64,000 nt of DNA from Pyropia yezoensis (taxonomy: Eukaryota; Rhodophyta; Bangiophyceae; Bangiales; Bangiaceae), in the NCBI GenBank assembly GCA_009829735.1, contig CM020618.1, positions 24,103,346 through 24,167,345 of the forward strand, given 5' to 3'. Position numbers and translations under genes: made by a program. The notes under the pieces were generated by a model. It ran no database searches. It was not told the DNA's origin and saw only the letters and a list, made by a program, of their open reading frames with translations. Shown piece by piece: positions 1 through 48,862 of the stretch; the first letter of the stretch is position 1; each line of letters starts with the position of its first letter.

Positions 1-719
1 GGCCACATCCGGCGCCCGCCGCGACGACGGCCGGCCGGCCGCTGCGGCCGCCGCCGCCGCCGCCGCGGCGGCGGCGGCGGGGCGGCTGCCGGCGGCGGCA
101 CCGCCCGCCCCGCCCTCCGTCCGTGGGTCCCCCCGCCGCCCCCCCCGCTGCCGACAGCGCACAACTCGGTGGGCTGTCCCCGGCAGCGGCGCCCGCCCCC
201 ACCATCTCCCCTCGCGGCCGGCGGCGGGGGGTGGCCACACCCCCCCGTCTGCGCGGCCGCGCGACCGCCGGTCACACATCATCATGCCGACGGTGGGCGA
301 TGCGCTGGCGGACGACCGCCCCGCGCCCGCCGCTGGCGCTGCCGCTGCGCGCGCCCGCCGCGGGTGTGTGTGTGCTGGCGGCGGGCGTGGCGTGGGGCCC
401 CCCGCGCCGCGCCGCGTCGCCCGGTGGTCGGCCGCCGTCATTGCCGCCGGCACGCCGCGGCCGCCCGCCGCCCCCCGGCCGTCCCGCCCCGCGCCGCGCC
501 GCGCCGCCGCGCTGCCCCCCCCCCCGCCTCCCCCCGCGCCGCCCTTCCGCCGCCCTCCCCCGCGCCCCGTCCGCGGCGGCGGCGCGCCTCCCCCCGCGGC
601 GGCGGCGCACGCTACCGCGGCTCGCCGCCCCGCTGGGAGGCGGGCGGGGGCCGGCGGGCGGGCGGGCGGGCCGCCCCGGCGGCGCACCCCCCCCCCCGTG
701 GGGGGTGGCTGTCGGCACC
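1..719. other. GC-rich upstream region, no gene recognised
   Basis: This stretch is almost entirely G and C, with runs of CCG/CGG and C. An open frame begins upstream at 123 and runs into the first gene, but its translation is only Pro/Arg/Ala-rich low complexity, so I treat it as leader or promoter DNA. A 30-bp perfect palindrome of five CCG followed by five CGG lies at 51-80. I see no TATA-like element. Confidence 0.5.
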
Positions 720-2572
720 ATGGCCGCCACGGCGGCTGTGAATGTGACGCAGCTGGTCGCCACCGTCACGGCGCAGCAGGCAGAGTTGTTCGCCCTCCAG
801 AACGCCGTGAAGTACCTCACCAGGGTCGTCCGGGACCAGGAAGTCGAGGCCTCGCGCTCCCTCCTCGGCGCCGACTTTTACACCGTCATCGCCCTGCTCG
901 TTCCGCTGCTGGTCGCCGCCTACCAGCTCGTCCCCGACCCGACAGGCGACCAAGACCACACCGAACAGTCCGAGCTCGGTGTGTACCACGAGTGGCGGAT
1001 GGCCGCGGCGACGCTGTTTGGCTACGGTGTGCTGGTCATTGGCATCGTGTTGCAGCAGCTGCAGTCGGGCTGGGGGGGCGTCGACTTGTGGTGGGTCGTC
1101 GCGCTGATGCTTGCCCCGTGGGCGCCCTTGGCGGGGCAGGTGTGGCGGACGCTGACCGCGTTTTGGCGGGTGCGCTTCATGATGCGCTCGCGCGGGTGCC
1201 GCAACCGGCTGACGGCGGTCATGCGCGAGTACCTGTGCGTTGGGAACCCCTACTTGGCGCCGTCGATAATGGCCGCCAGGCACCGCAGCGTCGAGCTGTT
1301 GCCGCGCCTGTGGGTGCCCCGCTGGGTGGTGCCAAACGTCGCAGAAGAAAAGGACGAGGTCCTCAATACTGTGAGGAAGGCTCTCAATGCGCGCGCAAAG
1401 AAGCGAGACATCCTCCTTGACGCCAGTCGCGCGAGTGCCGCCGCCTATGCTTGGGCAATGCGGGTGAACTTTCTCGACCCCTTGGCGCGGATGTGGAGCA
1501 ATCATGGGGCCAATATACCGCCGACGCGGTCGCGCTCCCTCCGCGGCATCTGCGACGTCCGCAGTTTCTGCGCTCGTCACGCTGTCGGCGAGACCGTGAT
1601 GCTCAGCCCATTTCATCTCCCCCCGGCCAAGACGGCAGGCGACACTGCGCGGGCCGCCGCTGGGGTGGAGGTGAAGCTGGACAGCGGGAAAGTGCGGCGG
1701 TCGTTGAGTTCCAAGGAGGAGACAGTGCTACTGGACGCGATAGACGTTGTGCAACCGGGGGGGACGTTGTCAAAGACGCGCGTGGAGCAGCTGTGTCGCT
1801 GTTGTGAACGATGCGTGATGGCCCTCCGAGCCGCCGTGGAGCTGTTTACTGAGTCGAGCAACTGTGGCCACCAAGGCGTCAACGCGGGCGAGTGGTTCAA
1901 AGACTTTGACCTGATGCCGCCGCGGCCTTCGTCATATGTGCTCAGCGTGTTGCGGGCGGCGGTGCTCGTGGACTGCCGCGCAAGTCCCATCGATGGCCAA
2001 CAGCCCGGCGACGCCGACGCGGAGGACGGGATGGCCCGACCGGAGACCGACCGGGTCCTGACTCTCCTTTTTTTCGTAGCGCGCTCGCTGCTGGGGAGGT
2101 CTGGGCGGCTGGAACCGTTGCGGGCACACATCACCGTCCGGTACCACTCGGCCGCCTGGTGGGACAGCTTTTGGGTCGCTCTCCGCGATCGCCTGAGCCG
2201 ACGCGTCGTCCCCGCCTCGGGGTGGCTGCCGACGGAGGACGGAGCCATGGACGACATCATGCAGTCCGCGGTGCGCGACACCGCCGCGGGCGAGGTGCGG
2301 CGCCTGCTGCAGGTACTGCACGAGCCTGAAGCTCTGTCTGGCTTGCCTGCCGCAGCAGCATCCGACCCGGAGGACAATGTCTCGGGCGAGTACGTGTGTT
2401 CAGTCCCCGACTGCTTCTTCAATCCGGGAGCCGACTACGGGCCGCTTGTGGTGCCGTCGCGACCGGTGGCGTCCACTGCGGCGGCGGTCGACACGGGGGA
2501 GCTGCAGCCCCCACCAGCGTCCCCGCCTGTGCGGCGGCCCGCATCCCGCCCGCCGCCGCCGCCGCCGCCGTC

Positions 2573-2615
<43 letters not shown>

Positions 2616-2717
2616 ACGGCCCCCGAGCAGCGCCTCCCGCCTGCGGTTGGCGGGGCGGCGACGGCCGCCGCGACTGCGGCGGGGGTGCAACCGCGGGAGG
2701 GGGGGGGGCAGCCTTGA
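720..2717 (+). CDS. hypothetical three-TM membrane protein with Pro-rich tail
   Basis: The start at 720 has a textbook context (ACCATGG) and is the first Met before well-formed sequence; it gives 665 residues without introns. The N-terminus (about 10-45) is amphipathic and could form a short coiled coil. Three hydrophobic segments follow at about 52-71, 94-113 and 121-142. A basic region (about 145-250) and a long soluble domain of normal composition come next; its cysteines include a C-R-C-C-E-R-C cluster near residue 360. The last 70 residues hold a poly-Pro run encoded by CCG repeats and an Ala/Gly tail. I do not recognise a family. The topology suggests a membrane-anchored protein with a large cytosolic domain, but no function can be assigned. 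It is convergent with the transporter downstream. Confidence 0.7.
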
Positions 2718-4137
2718 CCCACCCGCTTCGCGGCAGCCCGTTGCCCCGCGCGCGGCGCGGCACGGGCGCGATCGTTTCGGTGCGTTTCGGTTTTGTTCTT
2801 TGTTTCTGTTCCTGAGCGGGGCGCCGACGCCCCATGGCGGCGGCGGCCGCGGCGGCGGCCGCCCCGCAGGCTCCCCTGCCTCCTTCGAGCGGACGCGGCC
2901 GCGCCGCCCCGCCATCCTAGCCTCTGCGGTAGCCCCCTCGCTGCGCCCATGCGCGGGGCGCGCGGGCCCCGCGGACGCGCGGGGCGCTTGCCATGCCGCA
3001 ACAGATCCCTGTCTTGCGTCTACTGTTTTTCTTTTGTTTCTTTTTCATGCGTCGGCCCCTTTTCCCGACGCACCGGCGGTCTGGGCGGCGGGGGCTGCGG
3101 GGGCGGGTGCAGCGGGTGCACGCACGTCGATCACCGACGAATTTGAGCCCTTAATGAGGAAAAGTTAGATCGTCACGATCAAGCCCCCCGTCACACCATC
3201 CATCATCTCTGCCCAACGGAAGACCCCCGCCACACCATCCTTGACCGACTCTCTGCCTCCGACCCCCCTCCTGCGCCCCCTCCCTCGCGACATGGGTCCC
3301 CTCGCTGGTGCATGCGACGCAGAGTATGGGGTCGGCGGGACATCACGCCTCGGTCCCTACGACCGCCTTCCCTGCGTGGGCATCACTACGCGGCGTTGCT
3401 GTGCGCGCTCTCCCCCCCCGCCCGCGCTGTTCTCGTCTGTCGGTCACCCCAGCCACGGAGGAACGGGCTGGTAATGGTGGCCTTAGAGCAGAGTGTAATG
3501 GGCGGTGCGGGTTGTGGGCAGGTGGAGGGGGTGGGGGAGGGTGGGGGGGACGGTGGAGGTGGAGCGTGTGGGAAGGTGCGGGGTGGGAGCTAGAGGGAGG
3601 GAGATGGTGGGGGCAGGTGGGGGGTGGGAGTATGGAGCTGATGGGCGGAGGAGTGGAGAGGCCGCCTGCTACTGGCAGCGCGCAGCTGCGCACCCGTACT
3701 GTGCGCACGGGTCACAGACGGCGCGCGTCCACGGCGCTACATAAGGCCAAGCAGCTACGAGGAGTGCGGGCTGCTCACCCCCGACGGCGGCGCATCAAGA
3801 CCCTTCCCCCCCGCTGTCCGCCCCTCTGACTGCGTGTGTGCAGCTGGCTGTGTTCAGCATCTCTACGGGGCGCCAAGGCCGTCCCCTTCGTGCGGGGTCC
3901 CCCCTTCCTCCCCCCCTCCCTCCCTTGCGCCTCCTGCGCTTGGCTGCGGCCACGGCCATGTTGCTCTTGCGGCTGGTCGCCAGGGCGCTCACCGCCTCCT
4001 CCGCCACTGCGGCCGTCACCGCGCGTGACCCGCCTCCTCCGCACCGACGCGCGGACGCGCCTCCGGGAACGCAACGACGCGTCGACGGCGGGGCTTTGAG
4101 GCGGGAGCCGGGGGGGGGGGAAGGGAGGCGCTTTGTT

Positions 4138-8273: not shown

Positions 8274-8275
8274 CC
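8188..8275. repeat. GGT-rich minisatellite
   Basis: A tandem array of roughly 20-bp units (GGTGGTGGCGGG / GGTGGTGGGCGG variants), four to five copies, abutting the transposon target site. Confidence 0.75.
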
Positions 8276-8277
8276 AC
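8274..8277. repeat. target-site duplication CCAC (left)
   Basis: Repeated as CCAC at 9352-9355, immediately outside the two inverted ends of the transposon. Confidence 0.9.
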
Positions 8278-9351
8278 CACCCCCAGTTAAGGCGTGCCCA
8301 GAGCGGACACTAGAGTTCAGAGCGATTCCGGATCAGCCATTGGCCCAGAGCGCTGTGTCAGGAGAAAATATGGCATATACTGAAAATTGTCACTCTATTC
8401 CAGGGTTCAAGCGACGTGTCTGATGAGAAATGGAGCACAGCTGCCTGGGGCTGCTCTGGAGGGCCTCTTGCGTGGAAAATCGACATGGAATCAGCACATT
8501 TCTTCTCAATGAAAAAGCGCACAGTGCCTCACGGGCATCGCCACAGCAACGACGAAGCCACACAAGACAGCCCAAGGGGGAGCAGGTCCTCTAAGGCGGA
8601 AGGGGATCGTTGCACGGGAACAAGAGCAGCTCAGTTATTTCCCCGCATCCCAGAAGGTCTCTTTCATGGGTTGGTCGTCGTATCTTCCTCCTCGGCATGC
8701 GCGCAAGTCGCACACGGGGCACCCAGGGGAACCTGAGCGAAGACATAGGAGCCTGGAAGATGTACAAAGGAATGTCCAGAGTACACAGGTCATGTGAAAG
8801 AACAGCCAGTGTATCTTTAATCGTCAAGCAAAATGGCAAGGCACATTTCTTCTGCAGCAGCGACCAAGGCATCGTCGGCCTCTGCTTCGGCCTCCTCCGC
8901 TGCTGCTTCCTTGTCCTTTCGCTCTCATGTCCGGATCTGACCGTGGGCTCTGGCAGGAGCGGGTAGGGCCGTTCGATTTGCGCTGTGGATCAGACGGATT
9001 CCCGGGAGAATTGTAAAACTTATATACAAGTGCGAGAGCCCCTGAAAGTTGCATTCGCGCGCGGGCTGATTGCCGAACCACTTTGAACCATTGACTTTTT
9101 ATGCATGGAAAAAATGGCCCTCTTTACGAAGCATTTTTTTGTGCTACGGAAGAGATACTGCTGTACCTCTTTTTTCTCTTGTTATTTCTTTTGTGTTCTT
9201 GCTTCTTTTTTTCTTGCTGCGTATGGTCGTATATCTTTTCTCTCGTCCAACCAGGAAGCCGTATCGAGAGAGAAGTCGCCCGAACGTGGCACGTGTTGGA
9301 TGTAATGCAATATTCCCTCTGAACTCTAATGTCCGCCCTTAACTGGGGGTG
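8278..9351. mobile_element. non-autonomous DNA transposon, 1,074 bp (copy 1)
   Basis: The element runs from CACCCCCAGTTAAG to its inverted copy CTTAACTGGGGGTG. It is flanked by a perfect 4-bp duplication CCAC at 8274-8277 and 9352-9355. The TIR continues inward after a spacer as GCGGACA followed by TAGAGTTCAGAG; the spacer is 11 bp at the left end (8292-8302) and 1 bp at the right (9337). It encodes no transposase and I recognise no protein in it. A second copy of identical core length lies at 47298-48856; by eye the two differ at about 22 of 1,074 positions, so both moved or were amplified recently. The interior is much AT-richer than the host DNA. The left end has the same layout as the left end of the transposase-bearing element at 41353. 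Confidence 0.93.
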
Positions 9352-9355
9352 CCAC

Positions 9356-38124: not shown

Positions 38125-41015
38125 CCGCCGTGTTGGGGCCTAGACGGTGGCTTGCCTAGCTGGGTGGCCACTCGTATCGTGGGTGTGGTATTTGCGTTGC
38201 CAAGGTGCTGCGTCGGTGGTGGTGGCGTGCGGGACGTGAGGCGAGCTCGTCGGCGACCTGGGTGCATCACGTTGCTGTATTGGTTGCAACTGAGCCGTGG
38301 TGTGCGGGATGCGCAGCCACTGCGTTCGTGGCTGAGTCCCAGTGCTCCTGCGTCACGGCGTGGTTTCATTGCTGTCCGTGAACCCTGTTTCTGCCATGCT
38401 GAGCTCGCACCAGTCCGCCTTTGAGGAATCACCGATTGGACATATGCCACGGCTGTGGTGATTGATGTCGCTCCTATCGACAGATTGGAAGCTTGAGCTC
38501 CCCGCGGCGTCTGGCTAGTGCCCCCCTCTCTTCTCTGGGTGGTGTTTTGTATTGCGCTCGTCGTTGTCATGCTCTCCTCTGCGCTATTCGTGTGTGCCTT
38601 GAAGCCCTTGTTTTTTGTGTCTCTGTCTTGTCGTCTCCCTTTGATGATGTCCCGCGCCCTGCTTTTCTGCCAGATTGCAAGTGCGGGCGGGCGTGCTTGC
38701 TGGGCTCTCTTCTTTCTTCCCTGTCTTTTCGTTTTCTGCTCTCGGAGTGTGGTGGGTCTGGCAGTCGTACAGAAAGAGCTCCACTTGGCTTTCCCTCCCG
38801 CGACCCTGATGGTCACAGGTGCAAGTGTCACCTTTCGCTGCTAGTTGACCGTGACACTCCTCAGAGCAGCCCGTGTCGTGCGGGTAGTTGCGAGAGGGTG
38901 AAAGAAACTGGTGGTATGGACAGAGGCGGGTGGGCCGGAGCGAGCAGCCGCTCAGCGCTTTGACGTCGACCAGCGCCTGTTCTGCGTATTCGATCGTGAT
39001 AGGTGGTGATGAGTTGGAAAATAAACAGTCAAGCCGGTCCTACACAAGCAGCTACTCCTTACGGGTCCTCGCCGGCTATGTACGCCGACCGAGCGAGAGT
39101 CCCAGTCCAGCCAGAGGCGATTCACAAGAGGACCACGTGTGACCAACAGGCGCCGCGCAGGGGCTGCCGCTCCTCGTCGCTGCAGCGGGGAGGGGCTCCC
39201 CGTACTCGATCGGCCGAGGAGCGGCAGCAGATAGCGGCGGCTCGGGCCGCCGCCGCCACCCCACCCTGCAGGCCCTCCGAGAAGAGCATCTCCGAGTAGA
39301 GCCGATGGGAAGGGGCGGCAGCGGCAGCTTAGTGGTGATAAAGCCGGGACCGACCACAAGCCTGTTTCACGCCGGAAAAGCTGTGTGCGGCTAGTGCAAC
39401 AGGCCCTGCCGGCTGAAACGACGGTGAAACGACCTCGAATCTTGGTGGCTAAGGCGACTCAAAGAAGGAGGAAGTTCGACAAAGTGCGTCCTGTTAAGCT
39501 AACGCATCGCTAATAGATGGATAAAGAGTACCGATTAAGTGCCTGAAACTCCAATAAGAAACACCAGTCGCCCGTAGACACAACAGGTACAGCTGCCGGC
39601 TACCCCCGCCGTCACCCCCGCCGACCACAGCCGCAAGTCACTGCTGTCCGCCTTTGCTGTCGGCAACAGCTGCAGGCCACCGTCGCCGGCCACCGCCGCC
39701 GGCCACCGCCGCCGGCCAACCCCGCCAGCCACCCCCGCCAGTCACCGCCGCAGACCACCCCCGCAGGCCGCCGCTGTCCGGTGCGTCCGTCTGGCAGATC
39801 CCCAAGGGAGCGGTCGACATGCACCACCTCGGGGACAGGTGGCCACCCCCGCCGGCCACCCCAGCCAGCCACCGCCACAAGCTCCTACTGCCCGCCACCC
39901 CCGCCGGCCAGCCCCGCCGACCACAAGCCGGAACCACCGCTGCCGGCCACTCACGCAAGCCTCTCTCGCAGGTCACTGCCGCCAGCCATCGCCGCCGACC
40001 ATCGCCGCCGACCATCGCCGCCGGCCACCGCCGCCGGCACCCCCACTGGTGCACCCTCGCGGGTCACCCCTACCGGGTACCCAACCCCGCCGGCCAACCT
40101 CGCCAACGAACGCCGCAGCCGCCGGCAAACCCCGCAGGCCACCGCCGCAGTCCCCAGCGGCATGTCATTGCCGCAGGCCAACCCCGTCAGCTCCCCCCGC
40201 CGGCCACCGCCGCAGGCCACCCCGGCCACATCGTCGGTCGCAGCGACGAGGGGGGGGAGGGGAGGGAATGGGGGGGGGGGGGGGGGGGGGGTTGGGGAGG
40301 TGGAGCATGGCGGGGGGACGATTCGTCGTACAGCTTGTCGCGGGGGGACGCCAACGCCTGATCAGCGTGGTGCCCATGTGCCTAGCATTGCGTACACGTG
40401 ACGATTGCAGTGAAGGGAGCACTAACGCTAACACTCACCTGTGGAGTGTCTGTTTATTTCTTCGCAATGGCTCAGTTGCCTCCGGCAATCCGTCCCGACT
40501 TCTTGTCGGAGGGTGTGGGTCGACAAACAGGGGCTTCGCAAGTCTCATCAGACTACGAAGTGTGCTCTACAGTCCCAACAACACCAGGTCAGATGCCAGT
40601 GGGGCCGCCTATTCCAGGGGTACTTCCTCTTAGTTCGGGCCGAGCACGCCTAATCGCAGCCTGCAACCGACGTGCTGCCACGGCCAAGTGCTTGTGAGAT
40701 GCTTGTCAAGTGTTGTTGGATGGTCCTGAAATACGTAAGAACACACTTTTTTTACATCTTCTGGTACGCACCGTCGCTGCGCGTCTTTTCATACCATCAT
40801 AATCGTGTGGGGGCGACGTCTAGGGGCATTGCACAAGCCACAAAGAAGAGGACAATAAAAAATCGGCCTGTATGGGGGTGTGGAGGGGGATTCAGGGGGC
40901 CAGTTGACAAGCCGCGCACAAGCTTTTCCGGCGAGACGGGCTTGTGGTGGATCCCGGTTTTAGCACCACTGCGCAAGCGGGGTTCCGCTCGGCAAGAAAA
41001 GAGCAGCACAGTGGT
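38125..41015. other. 2.9-kb intergenic region with GCCACC minisatellite
   Basis: After the NF-YC stop, about 900 bp of T/G-rich balanced sequence may include its 3' UTR. A degenerate minisatellite covers about 39630-40245, followed by G20 near 40271-40290. The rest up to the MITE at 41016 is AT-richer. No protein family is recognised in any frame. Confidence 0.5.
39630..40245. repeat. degenerate GCCACCGCCGCCG minisatellite
   Basis: About 600 bp built from variants of GGCCACCGCCGCC and GCCACCCCCGCCA, in units of roughly 12-15 bp. Because the unit is not a multiple of three, the same Pro/Ala/His or Trp/Pro/Ala peptides appear in several frames of both strands. Confidence 0.75.
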
Positions 41016-41300
41016 CACGCCCAGTTAAGGGCGGACATCTGGGTCAGAACGGATGTATCTCATTGGTTGAAAACTCTCCACTACACCGAGAAAAAGCGCA
41101 GAGAGACGCGCCAGACAGGCACCAACGGGTACCTGGAGACAGACTGGCGCAAGAGAAACAGAGGAACCCTATACCATAAAAAGCGCTATGAGTTATCCAG
41201 TTTTATGCGCGTTTTTTTGTGCCCTGAACTGCTGTGCTTCACGCTGCTTCATGGGGTAGCAAGCCAGACGTCCGCAAACAGATACTCTTAACTGGGCGTG
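41016..41300. mobile_element. 285-bp MITE of the CACNCCCAGTTAAG family
   Basis: Inverted ends CACGCCCAGTTAAG and CTTAACTGGGCGTG are flanked by a perfect TGGT duplication at 41012-41015 and 41301-41304. The inner GCGGACRTCTGG box is 1 bp inside AGTTAAG at the left (spacer 41030) and 11 bp inside at the right (spacer 41276-41286). It has no coding capacity and lies 52 bp from the transposase-bearing element at 41353. Confidence 0.92.
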
Positions 41301-41352
41301 TGGTCGTCTCGCGACTACTGCCGCGACACCCGTGGCGGGCTGGGGACCGCCA

Positions 41353-44300
41353 CACACCCAGTTAAGACCCCCTCTGAGCGGTCATAGAGGTTTTCGAAGG
41401 ATTGCCAGCGCTCCATTGGCGACCGGTAAACATCTGAGGGGTCTGAGCCCACTGATTGGTGGCAGCACAGAATATCAGCAGGAACACTGAAGAAGCTCCG
41501 AAGTCGGAAACGTGGCTTCATGCACCCCGCCAGATTGCTCGAGTGGGGGCGCCCTGCTTCAATTCATGGACACTTGACGGTGCTGGTGCCCCACTTTAGA
41601 GAGTTTCCGTGATGAATGATTCAAACGGCTCCAGGCCTTTCACGGCCGCGACTGATTGACTTGGCCGTTTCGCAGGAGTCGACTCGCTATGGATCCACAC
41701 CTCAGGAGGGGGGGGGATTCACGCGCGGCGCACACACCAGGTGACTCCCTCGCCCTTCTCAGTGACTGCGCAGGGAGCATACATGCACAATGAGTGCGGC
41801 TGGAAATTCTTCACCAACTGCGAGACCTCATAGCGAACCCAGTCAAGGTGCATAGGCAGGAGAGAGGAATAGGGCCTCGTAGCGAAAAAGTGAGCAACGG
41901 TTCCAGGGGTTCCAATGGGACAGGAAGAATCAGCAAGTCATCGCGCATCCGCTCATACTTGCACCTGTCCAAGAAACGCGGCGCACACGACCGTTCTTGC
42001 GCTCCAAAGACAGTACAGGTCCGGTTGATATCGCTTTCAGCCGTATTGACGCCAGCTGGCTACCTCTTACGTTCGGTGTGGCACAGAGGCCTACTTTTGT
42101 CTCGGGTGGAAGACGTTCCTGGGCGCTGGTTCGACTGCATCGGCAAAGAATGCGCTCAGAGTGCCCGCATGCCCGGACTTGGTGGTGCAGCCCCCGCGGT
42201 TACAGTCAATCCCCGATGCTGGGGCGTCCTACATAGTGCCATGTGGCACTATAACGAGTTGATCGACGACCGCAATCGTCAGAATATTTTCTGATACGAT
42301 TGACTACTGCCCGGTCGACCGAGCCTCAAACTTGTAAACATTGGAGGTGGTTATCAACTAATGAAAGTCCGAAAAGATCCGACCGTGCGGGGAGGTGCCG
42401 CTGACGCGTGCCGTCGCCGGCCCCCCGTGCCGCCGTCTCCACCACCGCCATCCCCAGCGCGTGACGTCGCCCACCCCCCGCTCTTCTCTGTCGCTGCCCT
42501 GCACCTGCCGGAACGCCCCGGCCGGTCTTTCCCATCCCCGGGATCATGGCAGGCCCCAGTCACCCAGTCGCGCCGTTGTTGGACCGGATTGCGCGCGGAT
42601 CGCTGGCTGACCTGCAACGTATCGCTCGCGACCTGCTATCACTTTCGCCGGCCGACATCATGGCAGACCTGACACAGGGAGCTGCGCGGGGCGGAGGCAC
42701 GGCTCAAGGAGCCTGTGGCACGCATGGAGAAACACCGGCTCGCGGCGCGAGCGCGGCGGCGGGGCGATCCGCGACAGACGACCGCATGCTGGAGCGGCCA
42801 CCTATCGGCATCGTCGAATCGCTGCGTGACGGCGCGGAGGCAACCGTTGGTCCAATGACTGCTCAGCGCGACGCACCTGGTGTCAGATCTGACGTGGGGG
42901 GCCATCTGGCATCCCCGCTCAGTGCCACAGTCGCGGCGGCGGAGGCAGCGTTCGCGGTCATCTGTCCTCATCTAGTGGACGCCGCTCGGGACGGGATCCG
43001 GGCGGCTGCTCGAGCCGCCGCAGCCGTCGTGGTCCATTTTCGGATTGGCGACACGTCAGCTGTCGCGGAGGACGCGGATTCAGACGGAGGGGCCCAAGAG
43101 CGGGGGGGGCGCGTTGCTGACTCCCCTTTCGCGACGGCACATGATCGGGCGGTCGAGCCAACGGCAAGCCCGGCCAGGCATGTGGGTGGCGCGCGTCGGC
43201 CTGCGGCAGCGCGGCCCGGGAGAGGTGGGCTACGTGGCGCTGCAGTGCGTTCAGGCGGGGTGCCGCGCGCTCACGTCACCATGCGGCACAGACTGATGAT
43301 TATCTGCCTGCGCAGCGCGGGGATGACTTTCTCCCAGGTGCAGAAGGAGCTGCCCATCTCCATGTGCCCTCGAGCCATTAGAAACACGTGGTACCGTCGT
43401 GAGAGGTATCTTGCCGCGATGCGACTGGATAGTGTGGACCTGAGCTCGGCACGTTTTCGGTCTGCCCTGCACCCCGCCCTTGACGCTGCATTGCTGAGCT
43501 GGTTCCTTGCTGTCCGGGCATGCGGCCGTCGCACCGTACCGGTCACTGTTGAGCTGTTGAAGGGTCGGGCGAAGGAGATTGCGGAAGAAATGGGGCTTAC
43601 GGACTTTCGGGCGTCCACGGGCTTTGTCTGCCGGTGGGCTAAGCGGCATCACGTCAGGAGCATCGCACTCGTGGGTGCTGCTGCGTCAGCGGACCGCAGT
43701 GGCACGGTTGCTGAGATGGACGCCCTCCGACAGGTACTCCGTGGGGTTGAGCCCCGTCTCATCTATAATATGGATGAGACGGGGCTCTTCTACCGCTGCC
43801 TCCCTTACCGCTCGTACGTCACTGCGAGGGAGCGGAGGACGGCTCGTGGCTCCAAGGCAATGCGGGCCAAGGACCGGGTGACGGCGGTTCTGTGTGTGAA
43901 TGCGGACGGGTCGCACAAGCTGCCTATTGATGTCATTGGCAAGGCAGCGCGGCCGCTGTGCTTTCGTCCGCCGGCCGCGCCCTGCCCCGTGCCTTACTTC
44001 AGCCAGACCAACGCATGGATGGACGGGCCTACCATGGCGGCCTGGTTCAGGACCGTGTTTGTGGCGGAGGTACGCCGGGTCACCACGGAGCCGGTATACC
44101 TCATTATGGACAATGCTCCATCTCATGGCGTTTTACGGGAGGACGGTGTGACTGTGCTGTGCCTTCCCCCCAACACGACATCCATCTACCAGCCGCTCGA
44201 CATGGGAATTGTCTCCGCCGTCAAAAGACGCTACAAGTCCCGTCTTCTTCGCAAAGTTCTACAAGAATTGCGGTCGCAGCTCGCCGCCGGGGCGCCGCGT

Positions 44301-47182
44301 GAGGGAAACAATGGGACGGCGGGCTGCGGCAACACTGGGCCGGCGGGATGCCGTACCATCGGGGAGGCGGGCAGCGGCGCCGTCGGTGCGGCGGCGGGCG
44401 GCGGCGCCGCTGAGGCGACGCCGGGCGGCGCCGCCCCTGGGGCGGCCGGCGGCAGTACCGTTGGGGCAGCCAGAAGCAACGCCGCGGGGACAGCCGGCAG
44501 CAGTGCCGCTGGGGCAGCCGGCGGCAGCACCGCCGAGGCACCCGGCGCCGATGCCGCCGTGGCGGCTACCGCCGCAGCCGCCTGGACGGCCGCCGCCGCC
44601 GCCACCGCCGCGGCCCGCGCCGCCACCGCCACGGCGGCCGGCGGCGGCAGCGCGTTGGCTGCTGGCCGCGGCGCCTCTGGGGAGTCTTTTGGGGGCGCTT
44701 CTGGTGTTGTTGGCGCCGGCGAGGCCGCAGGGGCTGGCAGCGTCGCCGCTCGGGGGACGGGGGGCGCCACCGCCGTGGCGTCTGGAGGCGCCGCCGCTCG
44801 GGCTGTCGGGGGCGCTGCCGCTTGGGCACCTGGTGGCGCTAATGCTGGGGCGCCTGGCGGCGCGGCCCCTGGGGCGGCCTGCGGCGCGGCCGCCGTGGCG
44901 GCCGGCCGCGGCGCCGCCGGGCCAGCGAGTGGCGGCGCCGCCCGAAGCCGCAGCGGCGCTCACGGCCCAGGGCCTGCTCTCCGTCCAGATGCGGTCAACG
45001 CATCAGGCGTGCGTCCCTCCGCCGCTTTTGAGACGGCAGAGTGGGCCGCGCTCCGCGCCCTTACGCCCTCAAGGGCGCCCACTGCCCTTTTCTCTCCCTC
45101 TTCGGCGTCTGGCAACGAGGCGCCTTCGTTGGGGCGCTCGCCCTCCTCTGTTCTCCACCCCCTTCGGCTGCCGTTAATATCGGGCCTGCCGTTCCACTTC
45201 AACCTGTCGACCATGCCCCAGCCTCCACCGCGCCGCACATTTGTGGGGCCATTTTCGCCGCGCCAGCCGCCGGCAGCGTCCGTCGCCGGAGCTGATGACG
45301 AGCCGGAGGCTGACGATGGAACGGGCTTGCACACCATTACCCTGAAGGACGCGTGCACCATGTTGCGGACGGAGTGGGGCGCGGTGACAGAGGCCACCAT
45401 CTGCAATTGCTGGATTAAGGCGGACGTCCTCCTCCCGGAAGCGAACGCTACCCTCCGCAGCCGCCACTCGAGCTACCACACCGGCACATTGCGGGTGGAT
45501 GAGGAGGTAGGGGACATTTTGCAGATGGTGCAGGCATGGACCTGCTCTGCCGAGCCCACCACACCATCCCAGGTTGCAGAGCGTGTGATTTCGGTTTCTG
45601 AGTGGCTTGAGGCTGAACAGCTACCCCCCACAGTACTCGACACTGTCGCAAACATGCCTCGTGAACTTGAGAACGAGGGAGATGAGAGCGAGCCATAACC
45701 ATCCCCATAACTGGATGATGGTGGGAGAGGCATAAAGAACGATACGATGAACGGGTCGCACAAACATCATTATTCGGATACCAACGCGCGGGACACACGC
45801 ACGTGCTTGGGTCGCTCCCACCCCATCCCTCGACACAAAACGATTCTCCCCAGCAACCTACCTCCCCCAGTGCCGACCTCTCCCAGAGCCAACGTCTGCC
45901 AGCACGCGCCACCACCGAGCTCCCATCACCCCCCAGCGGACCTGACCCCAACGCACCCCAACGCGCGCATCGTCTCTCCCGCGCCTCTCTCAACCCCCAC
46001 CCTCAACGCAGCCTCCCACCAAAATGAGGGCATCCGCAACAGCCCCGCCCACCTGCCTTGCCCCTTGCTCACGTACGCCTCACCACCGGTGGCACACGGG
46101 GGCTTGTACAGACTCTTGAAGATGCACACCAGCCCTGTGTAGAAAGAGGGGGGGGGGGCAGGGGTGGCAGACCGGAGGGAAAGACAAAAAGAGGACACAG
46201 GGGAGGGAGAGTACAAGGAAAAACAGGATGGGAAAACACGGGGAGAAAGACATCATGAGGGAGACCGCGAGGGGGGGGGGGGGGGGGTGGGACACTGGGC
46301 TGAGCTAAAAGCATACGCTGGTCGCAGGGAGTTGGGAAAGTAGGAAAGAAAGAGCGGCATCTTAGCCGGAGCAAACACATGATCAGGAACGCACACGAGT
46401 ACAAAGGATGGGAAGAAGAGCTATAACGCAAGAGACATGGAGGTGAGCACTCCCGGACAGGGCCACCATGGTGGCGGGGAGGGATAAACGGGAGGAAAGC
46501 CGGCGGCGCAGAAGGAGAGCAAAAGACGCAACGGGACGAGTCATCGTTTGGCGGGCAGGGTGCGTGGACGGACGGTGCAGCAGCAAGGCAAAGGTTGTCG
46601 TGGCTGGGGGTGAGAGGGAGACAGTCGGGCGATCGTCCTTGAAAAGGATGAAAGATTGAGGTCTACGCCGCTGGCAGGTGTGCGAGGGCCCCGCTGCTCG
46701 GGAGAATCGCAGCAGCGTGTGGCGAGGAGGCGGCACAAGGGCCAGTCTCCTGAAAACTCTCACCATCTGCCAGCGCTTGCATGTGATTATTGACCGAAGA
46801 TTTCGAGCATATGGAAAGAATCGGATGACTTCTGGCCCGATCGACTTCTGAGAAACTCGCGGGCGACGACTGTCTGTCGCGCTTCTGGATGATCAATGCC
46901 CACGACCTGGCTGGAAGCGGCCTGACGGGGGCCTGGGTGCACGACGGCGCAGCCCGTTTTACGACCCACACAATCGATCTGACACAGTAAACCTGCCCGC
47001 GCACGGCGCGGCAGCTGCAATTCATGCCATAGGGGTGGCACATCATCGGGGATTGACTGTACCCTCACCCCGACGGCGCGCACAGGCCACACAGACCACG
47101 CAAGTTTTATAATATATTCAAATTCTGTCACACGTGGCTTTGTAATGAGCCAATACGCTACGTCCGCCCTTAACTGGGTGTG
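41353..47182 (+). mobile_element. complete-looking autonomous DNA transposon with pogo/Tigger-like transposase (5.83 kb)
   Basis: The element runs from CACACCCAGTTAAG to CTTAACTGGGTGTG (14-bp perfect TIR). It is flanked by GCCA at 41349-41352 and 47183-47186, a perfect 4-bp duplication. The left end has AGTTAAG, an 11-bp spacer (41367-41377) and GCGGTC; the right end has GCGGAC with a 1-bp spacer (47168). This is the same asymmetry as in the two non-autonomous types of the window. The body encodes one long transposase (42546-45698). About 1.2 kb of 5' and 1.5 kb of 3' sequence are without recognised genes. The open transposase frame and matching target duplications suggest it may still be, or recently was, active. 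Confidence 0.88.
42546..45698 (+). CDS. pogo/Tigger-like transposase (CENP-B type HTH, DDE_1)
   Basis: An uninterrupted frame of 1,050 residues inside the transposon. Residues 1-240 are unassigned and Ala/Gly/Arg-rich. About 245-285 looks like a first helix-turn-helix (M-I-I-C-L-R-S-A-G-M-T-F-S-Q-V). About 310-385 resembles the CENP-B/Tc5 HTH (A-L-L-S-W-F-L..F-R-A-S-T-G-F-V-C-R-W-A-K-R-H). The catalytic core has N-M-D410-E-T-G-L-F, L-I-M-D522-N-A-P-S-H and Y-Q-P-L-D552-M-G-I. D522 to D552 leaves 29 residues, the DD29/30D spacing of pogo-like enzymes. Residues 580-805 are an Ala/Gly-rich insert. The end (about 915-1050) returns to a folded segment with L-K-D-A-C-T-M-L-R-T-E-W and T-I-C-N-C-W, as in Tigger proteins. 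It would cut and rejoin the element ends in the nucleus. Confidence 0.9.
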   Translation: MAGPSHPVAPLLDRIARGSLADLQRIARDLLSLSPADIMADLTQGAARGGGTAQGACGTHGETPARGASAAAGRSATDDRMLERPPIGIVESLRDGAEATVGPMTAQRDAPGVRSDVGGHLASPLSATVAAAEAAFAVICPHLVDAARDGIRAAARAAAAVVVHFRIGDTSAVAEDADSDGGAQERGGRVADSPFATAHDRAVEPTASPARHVGGARRPAAARPGRGGLRGAAVRSGGVPRAHVTMRHRLMIICLRSAGMTFSQVQKELPISMCPRAIRNTWYRRERYLAAMRLDSVDLSSARFRSALHPALDAALLSWFLAVRACGRRTVPVTVELLKGRAKEIAEEMGLTDFRASTGFVCRWAKRHHVRSIALVGAAASADRSGTVAEMDALRQVLRGVEPRLIYNMDETGLFYRCLPYRSYVTARERRTARGSKAMRAKDRVTAVLCVNADGSHKLPIDVIGKAARPLCFRPPAAPCPVPYFSQTNAWMDGPTMAAWFRTVFVAEVRRVTTEPVYLIMDNAPSHGVLREDGVTVLCLPPNTTSIYQPLDMGIVSAVKRRYKSRLLRKVLQELRSQLAAGAPREGNNGTAGCGNTGPAGCRTIGEAGSGAVGAAAGGGAAEATPGGAAPGAAGGSTVGAARSNAAGTAGSSAAGAAGGSTAEAPGADAAVAATAAAAWTAAAAATAAARAATATAAGGGSALAAGRGASGESFGGASGVVGAGEAAGAGSVAARGTGGATAVASGGAAARAVGGAAAWAPGGANAGAPGGAAPGAACGAAAVAAGRGAAGPASGGAARSRSGAHGPGPALRPDAVNASGVRPSAAFETAEWAALRALTPSRAPTALFSPSSASGNEAPSLGRSPSSVLHPLRLPLISGLPFHFNLSTMPQPPPRRTFVGPFSPRQPPAASVAGADDEPEADDGTGLHTITLKDACTMLRTEWGAVTEATICNCWIKADVLLPEANATLRSRHSSYHTGTLRVDEEVGDILQMVQAWTCSAEPTTPSQVAERVISVSEWLEAEQLPPTVLDTVANMPRELENEGDESEP

Positions 47183-47297
47183 GCCAGCTGGGAAGGGGAA
47201 GATGACAACAGCCACGCTCGCTGGTGCTCCCCTCAGACCCTGACCCCCGATTCCCTCCTTGGGACCCAGGCCTCGTCTGCCCACTCCCCTTGACATC
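47183..47297. other. short spacer between two transposons
   Basis: About 115 bp of host sequence, including the GCCA and CATC target duplications at its two edges. No gene. Confidence 0.7.
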
Positions 47298-47468
47298 CAC
47301 CCCCAGTTAAGGCGTGCCCAGAGCGGACACTAGAGTTCAGAGCGATTCCGGATCAGCCATTGGCCCAGAGCGCTGTGTCAGGAGCAAATATGGCATATAC
47401 TGAAAATTGTCACACTATTCCAGGGTTCAAGCGACGTGTCTGATGAGAAATGGAGCACAGCTGCCTGG

Positions 47469-47948
47469 CGTGAATGAGCAGCGGCGGTTCGGGCGCGGGG
47501 CCACACTGGCACGCGCCCGCTCCCGCCGCTGCATCATGTGAATGAGCAGCGGCGGTTCGGGCGCGGGGCCACACTGGCACGCGCCCGCTCCCGCCGCTGC
47601 ATCATGTGAATGAGCAGCGGCGGTTCGGGCGCGGGGCCACACTGGCACGCGCCCGCTCCAGCCGCTGCATCACGCCGCCACGTAACGGCGACAGTTTACA
47701 AGGGACGGTGCGACCACGGGCGGCCTCGGGTGCACAAGATAGGAGGGGCGGGGCAGGGGTCCCCGCAGGCTGACACGAGGGGGCGCCACTGTGGAGGGGG
47801 CGCCAAGGAGTGGCGCGCGCGCGGTGCGTGCGCGCGAGGAACGATGCTTCCCCGCTTCCGGGGGGGGCCTCTGGGTATATGGGCAGGTGAGGAGAGACGG
47901 GGGGTAGCGGTGGGACGAGGGCAATAAGAATGCAAGTCTCTTTTCACA
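47469..47948. mobile_element. 480-bp nested insertion with 5-bp duplication CCTGG
   Basis: Comparison with copy 1 shows 480 bp inserted between 47468 and 47949, flanked by CCTGG at 47464-47468 and 47949-47953. The ends begin CGTGAA and finish TTCACA, a 5-bp inverted match. The first 204 bp are three tandem 68-bp units, followed by GC-rich sequence without a recognised protein. The family is unknown. Confidence 0.8.
47470..47673. repeat. three tandem 68-bp hairpin units
   Basis: Units start at 47470, 47538 and 47606 and are identical except for a few bases at the end of the third. Each is itself an imperfect inverted repeat: GCAGCGGCGG, GGGCGCG and CCA pair with TGG, CGCGCCC and CCGCCGCTGC around a CAC loop. 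Confidence 0.9.
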
Positions 47949-48862
47949 CCTGGGGCTGCTCTGGAGGGCCTCTTGCGTGGAAAATCGACATGGAATCAGC
48001 ACATTCCTTCTCAATGAAAAAGCGCACAGTGCCTCACGGGCATCGCCACAGCAACGACGAAGTCACACAAGACAGCCCAAGGGGGAGCAGGCCCTCTAAG
48101 GCGGAAGGGGATCGTTGCACGGGAACAACAGCAGCTCAGTTATTTCCCCGCATCCCAGAAGGTCTCTTTCATGGGTTGGTCGTCTTATCTTCCTCCTCGG
48201 CATGCGCGCAAGTCGCACACGGGGCACCCAGGGGAACCTGAGCGAAAACATAGGAACCTGGAAGATGTACAAAGGAATGTCCAGAGTACACAGGTCATGT
48301 GAAAGAACAGCCAGTGTATCTTTAATCGTCAAGCAAAATGGCAAGGCACATTTCTTCTGCAGCAGCGACCAAGGCATCGTCGGCCTCTGCTTCGGCCTCC
48401 TCCGCTGCTGCTTCCTTGTCCTTTCGCTCTCATGTCCGGATCTGACCGTGGGCTCTGGCAGGAGCGGGTAGGGCCGTTCGATTTGCGCTGTGGATCAGAC
48501 GGATTCCCGGGAGAATTGTAAAACTTATATACAAGTGCGAGAGCCCCTGAACGTTGCATTCGCGCGCGGACTAATTGCCGAACCACTTTAAACCATTGAC
48601 TGTTTATGCATGGAAAAAATGGCCCTCTTGACGGGGCATTTTTCTGTGCTAAGGAAGAGATACGGCTGTACCTCTTTTTTCTCTTGTTATTTCTTTTGTG
48701 TTCTTGCTTCTTTTTTTCTTGCTGCGTATGGTCGTATATCTTTTCTCTCGTCCAACCAGGAAGCCGTATCGAGAGAGAAGTCGCCCGAACGTGGCACGTG
48801 TTGGATGTAATGCAATATTCCTTCTGAACTCTAATGTCCGCCCTTGACTGGGGGTGCATCCC

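Follow-up and report, generated by a model that had tools for sequence, protein, structure and literature searches.

Unequal 1-bp and 11-bp end spacers in transposons of the red alga Pyropia yezoensis with a predicted RAG1-type transposase

A group of DNA transposons in the red alga Pyropia yezoensis carries the same two sequence boxes at both ends, separated by a single base pair at one end and by 11 bp at the other. Four of these elements lie in a stretch of 64,000 nucleotides on contig CM020618.1 (GenBank assembly GCA_009829735.1, positions 24,103,346 to 24,167,345 of the forward strand), which is called the window in the following. Of the 98 elements in the genome for which both ends could be read or placed, 96 combine a 1-bp with an 11-bp spacer; one is spaced 12/1 and one 13/1, and neither a 1/1 nor an 11/11 element was found. 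The 1/11 observation is real and strict. An earlier sequence-only reading of the window had foreseen a strict 1/11 pairing and proposed to tabulate the spacers of two-ended copies genome-wide; this tabulation, run on listed and fetched loci, bore the pairing out. We consider it likely that these are cut-and-paste transposons with a RAG1/Transib catalytic core, whose upstream 1-bp and downstream 11-bp ends are paired in a manner resembling the 12/23 rule.

The pattern CAGTTAAGN{0,25}GCGGWC matches seven times in the window (69 % GC) where 0.01 matches are expected, and the eighth end, with its spacer at 48842, departs from the box pattern by a single mismatch (CAGTCAAG). All eight spacers lie exactly where the sequence-only reading had placed them. 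The four elements and their parts are as follows.

8278..9351, forward strand: non-autonomous element A, 1074 bp, 11-bp end left and 1-bp end right
8274-8277 and 9352-9355: target site duplication (TSD) CCAC of element A
8292..8302, forward strand: 11-bp spacer of element A, GCGTGCCCAGA, between CAGTTAAG and GCGGAC
9337..9337, reverse strand: 1-bp spacer of element A
41016..41300, forward strand: miniature inverted-repeat transposable element (MITE) B, 285 bp, 1-bp end left and 11-bp end right
41012-41015 and 41301-41304: TSD TGGT of MITE B
41030..41030, forward strand: 1-bp spacer of MITE B
41276..41286, reverse strand: 11-bp spacer of MITE B, AGTATCTGTTT as read on the minus strand
41353..47182, forward strand: element C, a non-autonomous copy of about 970 bp split by a nested pogo-type element, 11-bp end left and 1-bp end right
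41349-41352 and 47183-47186: TSD GCCA of element C
41367..41377, forward strand: 11-bp spacer of element C, ACCCCCTCTGA, preceding GCGGTC
47168..47168, reverse strand: 1-bp spacer of element C
47298..48856, forward strand: non-autonomous element D, 1559 bp, a relative of A, 11-bp end left and 1-bp end (CAGTCAAG variant) right
47294-47297 and 48857-48860: TSD CATC of element D
47312..47322, forward strand: 11-bp spacer of element D, GCGTGCCCAGA
48842..48842, reverse strand: 1-bp spacer of element D

The boxes named in the sequence-only reading stand, whereas the outer limit that it had set at AGTTAAG has to be moved: in the four window elements the ends start at CACNCC-CAGTTAAG, directly inside a 4-bp direct repeat. 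Among the 66 elements with perfect boxes a 4-bp duplication is present in 56, a 5-bp match in 2, and shifted controls give 3 to 5 of 66; 124 of their 132 tips start with CAC. The inner boxes start 16 and 26 bases from the tip, a separation of 10 bp or about 0.95 helical turns. Elements as short as 0.2-0.3 kb hold both ends.

A search of the genome (107,475,971 bases, 11 contigs) for CAGTTAAG followed by GCGGWC at any spacing from 0 to 25 bp returned 295 ends, against 24 for the reversed-pattern control. Exactly 1 or 11 bp separate the boxes in 283 of them (141 with 1 bp; 142 with 11 bp, i.e. 111 + 31). The other 12 are within the number expected from the control; seven of them are among the matches listed, comprising two true copies (L099 and L100), a 10-bp chance match without a proper tip (L101) and four at 16-25 bp that were counted by the match alone. 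The position is known for at least 243 of the 283 exact ends, and when these 243 were ordered by place, all 75 pairs of adjacent convergent ends within 7 kb consisted of one 1-bp and one 11-bp end. About half would be expected if ends were paired at random, although an exact probability should not be taken literally, since the copies are related.

The 96 elements of type 1/11 comprise 66 with perfect boxes, 9 paired via a further end list, 11 and 6 recovered from lone ends, and 4 from divergent lineages. Two further pairings, one due to a duplicated end and the other a false pair of 7.5 kb, were dropped to arrive at the 66, and a 10-kb pair with GGCGAC boxes (C2:16510712/16520748) was kept out of the tabulation. 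Among the matches listed outside the window are 63 lone 11-bp ends, of which 17 were fetched and 9 more were paired via the end list. Together with the second copy in the window 18 were looked at, and 11 of these possess a diverged partner, always with a 1-bp spacer and at most one mismatch in the inner box; in two of the partners a nested insertion interrupts the end. Nine of the 33 lone 1-bp ends listed were fetched (L102-L110) and one more lies within L099. Six of the nine have an 11-bp partner, one of them with a box mismatch and one with a degenerate tip.

Autonomous relatives of the window elements encode a transposase of 850-990 amino acids (aa). When the predicted model of a homologue with 99% identity was compared with the Protein Data Bank (PDB), RAG1, Transib and RAG1L matched far better than any other entry, which points to a RAG1 catalytic-core fold. 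Residues D502, D579, C598/C601, H820/H825 and E845 of the L039 protein are invariant across four autonomous lineages and make up the D, D, E, C(2)C and H(4)H set; the histidines and E align with RAG1, and the C(2)C segment was aligned to RAG1L only in a separate stretch with a negative score. The formal likeness to the 12/23 spacers that the sequence-only reading had drawn holds up, and it is stronger than first supposed because the transposase is predicted to have the RAG1/Transib fold. No Pfam family was found above cut-off in the four transposases, with DUF1280 and RAG1 below threshold; among 26 homologues DUF1280 appeared in 10 (best 1.3e-6) and RAG1 in 2 (best 0.0088). A search of the protein database with profile A2 returned 10 proteins, three of them new and short, and viral contigs searched with one protein gave no relatives. 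L039 offers no room for a RAG2-like gene, as its open reading frame (ORF) at 550-3528 leaves about 0.4 kb on either flank and all other ORFs have at most 171 aa; this was judged by the space in L039 alone, and the antisense ORFs of L010 and L033 stand outside that judgement.

A protein search of the genome, in which 46 of 1387 candidates were scored, revealed further lineages down to 43% identity and at least 13 matches that span at least 680 of 992 residues without a stop. After one of six array copies was kept, 41 of the 46 scored loci entered the polarity count. The 11-bp end lies downstream of the gene at all 29 loci where such an end could be placed, and the 23 loci with both ends placed have 1 bp upstream and 11 bp downstream throughout. 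Transposases of the lineages with both ends share 43-55% identity. The divergent loci C2:17699442, C3:28909189 and C1:34694145 are all 1/11, the first two with a 4-bp TSD. The fetched flanks of C1:5497818 hold a degenerate 1-bp end only; those of C3:6774806 hold an 11-bp end only, which is paired with an exact 1-bp end from the genome list. Both ends of C3:28909189 carry GGCGAC as their inner box, and a free-spacing search with this box gave 7 of 7 ends at 1 or 11 bp (control 0). For the 11-bp end of the TAGTTAAG lineage a search yielded 12 matches and none in the control; 11 of the 12 are spaced at 11 bp and the remaining one at 10 bp.

The spacers had been described as fixed in length and unrelated in sequence. 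The first part agrees with the 283 of 295 ends given above; the second does not hold, as the 17 types of 11-bp spacer (a grouping of our own) share on average 4.78 of 11 positions, compared to a mean of 2.84 and a maximum of 3.31 when the letters were shuffled 1000 times. C occupies position 6 in 15 of the 17 types, and A occupies position 1 in 14. The least alike pair has 1 of 11 positions in common and the same length, and a minimum spanning tree of the 17 types requires at least 48 substitutions and no change in length. Single copies show length variants and substitutions in a ratio of 2:16, from which about six length changes would be expected in the tree (Poisson probability of none about 0.0025). 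The estimate is rough, since it depends on our own grouping and on two length events, and the ratio rather understates length change, since its length variants come from a shorter match list than its substitutions; the 10-bp end is not counted in it.

In the RAG recombinase the nonamer-binding dimer tilts toward the near and the far nonamer, and the same logic is inferred here because the box geometry resembles that of RAG. Each end would consist of a catalytic tip CACNCCCAGTTAAG, cut at CAC and inserted with a 4-bp stagger, and of an inner recognition box GCGGAC or GCGGTC. This box would lie 1 bp behind the tip block at the upstream end and 11 bp behind it at the downstream end, one turn further and on nearly the same face of the DNA. 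A transposase with the RAG1/Transib-type core would move the elements by cut-and-paste, the two active sites of its dimer binding both tips symmetrically, while a joined pair of inner-box binding domains would tilt as a unit and fit one near and one far box, not two alike. The 1/11 anatomy, the fixed polarity, its retention across divergent lineages and the TSD are seen directly, and the fold is predicted; a need of the enzyme for unlike ends, a protein contact at the inner box and the tilting of the domains belong to the proposed mechanism.

Several points weigh against this explanation. The partial conservation of the spacer offers sequence contact as an alternative to pure length. No partner was found for 7 of the 18 lone 11-bp ends and 3 of the 9 lone 1-bp ends examined, and 12 of the 41 transposase loci have no end of this type among the listed ends. 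L099 and L100 have intact 4-bp TSDs and yet 12/1 and 13/1 spacing, and the TAGTTAAG lineage contributes its 10-bp end; the 10-, 12- and 13-bp spacers may owe their length to changes that followed insertion, or the enzyme may accept a deviation of one or two bases. Because all copies come from one genome and ends are inherited within families, the 96 are not 96 independent tests: L042 and L059 share their left flank and may be one duplicated insertion, likewise L102 and L104. A search of the PDB with profile A1 gave no match at E<=10, and the similarity between transposase and RAG1 is not significant by sequence alone. The inner-box domain is putative, the model being of low confidence over large parts of its first 330 residues. 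Finally, rather little sensitivity to asymmetry is expected of the invertebrate RAGL elements (PMC7204232), which speaks against the importance of the unequal spacers.

A frozen accident, i.e. a single 10-bp insertion into an ancestral end that was inherited and that the enzyme tolerates but does not require, appears unlikely to us, even if it is the strongest of the competing explanations. A single origin as such is likely because arrangement and polarity are common to all lineages with both ends and the spacers are partly related, and ends are passed on passively by copying. On the other hand, substitutions have accumulated between lineages until spacers differ at up to 10 of 11 positions while their length stayed the same, the transposases have diverged to 43-55% identity, and the length changes that do arise in single copies founded no family that was found. 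Somewhat less probable still is that the 11-bp segment is a sequence-specific site at the downstream end only, bound by a host factor or another transposase domain, with length not being read. The similarity of the spacers above shuffled sequences and the preferred letters at positions 1 and 6 fit such a site, but the least alike types keep the length while sharing 1 of 11 positions, and the spacers of V(D)J recombination signals are likewise partly conserved and read by length (PMC8289069).

The sequence-only reading had attached the asymmetric rule to a pogo-like DDE_1 family, since a DDE_1/HTH_Tnp_Tc5 ORF does lie inside 41353-47182; this attribution is refuted by the nested structure and retains practically no probability. 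The relevant features are these.

42203..47059, forward strand: nested pogo-type element with inverted ends CAGTCAATCCCCGATG, flanked by TA at 42201-42202 and 47060-47061; the AGTTAAG ends do not stem from it
42546..45698, forward strand: 1050-aa ORF of the nested element, DDE_1 (E 1.5e-31) and HTH_Tnp_Tc5

The ORF belongs to an element distinct from its host, which has inverted ends of its own and is bordered by TA, while the host elements have 4-bp TSDs (56 of 66 exact) and not TA, which speaks against a pogo or IS630-Tc1-mariner identity. DDE_1 was rejected as host transposase also because the four complete relatives encode another transposase, predicted to have the RAG1 fold, and give no DDE_1 match. 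The best DNA matches of element C to other copies span about 41351 to 42203 and stop at the border of the nested element; because they stop there, element C is taken as a non-autonomous copy of about 970 bp like L012, L049, L058 and L071. From 42201 onward six other loci match at 99-100%. The nested pogo, with its DDE_1 ORF open, was probably active recently, as its first 100 bp are 99-100% identical at these six loci.

The closest published case found is AanRAGL of the pelagophyte alga Aureococcus anophagefferens, with a 13-bp tip CACACCCAAACCT, a 10-bp box, spacers of 4 and 13 bp, a 5-bp TSD and RAG2L (Tao et al. 2022, PMC9435367). Both have a CAC tip (the first 8 letters of CACACCCAAACCT match the CACACC-type tips here), bipartite asymmetric terminal inverted repeats (TIRs) and a RAG1-like enzyme; they differ in the TSD (5 versus 4 bp), in the step (9 versus 10 bp) and in RAG2L, for which L039 has no room. 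ProtoRAG of amphioxus also combines a CAC tip and a bipartite TIR with asymmetric spacers of rigid length, and its unlike TIRs are more active than like pairs; these spacers measure 27 and 31 bp and RAG2L is the partner, in contrast to the one-turn step here (PMC8289069). The V(D)J signals resemble the ends described here in the CAC-starting tip, the inner box, two spacer lengths that differ by about one turn (11 bp, compared with 10 bp here) and the RAG1 fold, but border immune gene segments, whereas these are transposon ends at which the exclusion of like pairs is presumed. Transib elements have a TSD of 5 bp, and they share the RAG1-type core and the CAC tips. One example of the 5-bp TSD is documented (PMC4411706), and among the elements studied here the same length matches in 2 and 4 bp in 56 of 66. 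Some Transibs are 12/23-asymmetric and others symmetric (PMC8355894), with all of Subgroup I asymmetric (PMC9435367). CACTA/EnSpm elements differ by a 3-bp TSD from the 4 bp found here. For Chapaev we know of no end-spacer rule in print. The Chapaev or CMC(T) elements carry 5'-CAC...GTG-3' termini and a 3-4-bp TSD (PMC4079192, PMC12730594), features that the present elements share. The Drosophila P element has ends with two unequal spacers as well, 9 and 21 bp from TIR to transposase site, already likened to V(D)J signals in print (PMC7776569).

Asymmetric ends of RAG1/Transib relatives, those of an alga (4/13 bp) included, are already published, and the phenomenon is of a known kind. The remark in the sequence-only reading that no such description was known for pogo-like elements is not contradicted by the titles listed for pogo; for RAG1/Transib relatives (PMC9435367, PMC8289069, PMC8355894) and for the P element (PMC7776569) unequal spacers are in print. 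Among the published titles and abstracts found by literature search none names these red-algal elements, Repbase lying outside the search and most full texts being unread. What seems to be undescribed in the literature found is how strict the pairing is, along with the one-turn step, a TSD of 4 bp, the lack of room for RAG2L and the red-algal setting. The chances are about even that red algae harbour a RAG1-fold transposase clade without a RAG2 partner and with 4-bp TSDs, in which the one-turn 1/11 unlike-ends rule with fixed polarity is obligatory in every active lineage. Why the RAG recombinase insists on a 12-bp together with a 23-bp spacer, and since when, is a long-standing question. If the rule proves true, then together with AanRAGL and the asymmetric Transibs it would mean that asymmetry is old in RAG1-fold transposases, predating and independent of RAG2, and that immunity took over the 12/23 rule by inheritance instead of inventing it. 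A single genome offers 17 spacer types and hundreds of RAG1-fold transposon ends with an asymmetry of about one turn and fixed polarity. Since two-ended elements of 0.2-0.3 kb and stop-free transposase matches exist, the pairing rule can be assayed directly, and the natural variants of 10, 12 and 13 bp could probe the tolerance.

Behind the inner box of many 11-bp ends, at a distance of 20-21 or 30-31 bp (49 bp in one), there is a third subterminal motif, ATTGG/ATTAC, which several such ends lack. At the 1-bp ends it mostly follows at 13-15 or 24-25 bp (also 17 and 26; absent in some). The spacing may reflect further helical steps; the motif may instead be a CCAAT-type promoter motif. In L022:120-260 (G000:C1:21087754-21087814) two copies of the 1-bp end lie 40 bp from each other and enclose a copy of the palindromic flank TGCGCAGGGCCTGCGCA; this arrangement may have been left by an aberrant excision or by a duplication of the end. 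A separate small element with ends GTGCGTCCCGTAAAAAGTGGAC is inserted in the TTAA of two 1-bp ends, L073 and L079; both had been candidates for exceptions, with a second end lacking the inner box, and by eye are really 1-bp ends split by this nested insertion. In G000:C1:9167988-9193004 six matches to the RAG1-fold transposase of near-equal score, each with 5 stops, are spaced at 2.6 kb or multiples thereof and appear to form a tandem array that arose from a dead copy. Element D contains, by eye, about three tandem copies of a GC-rich unit of about 70 bp (window 47470-47680) that are absent from element A.
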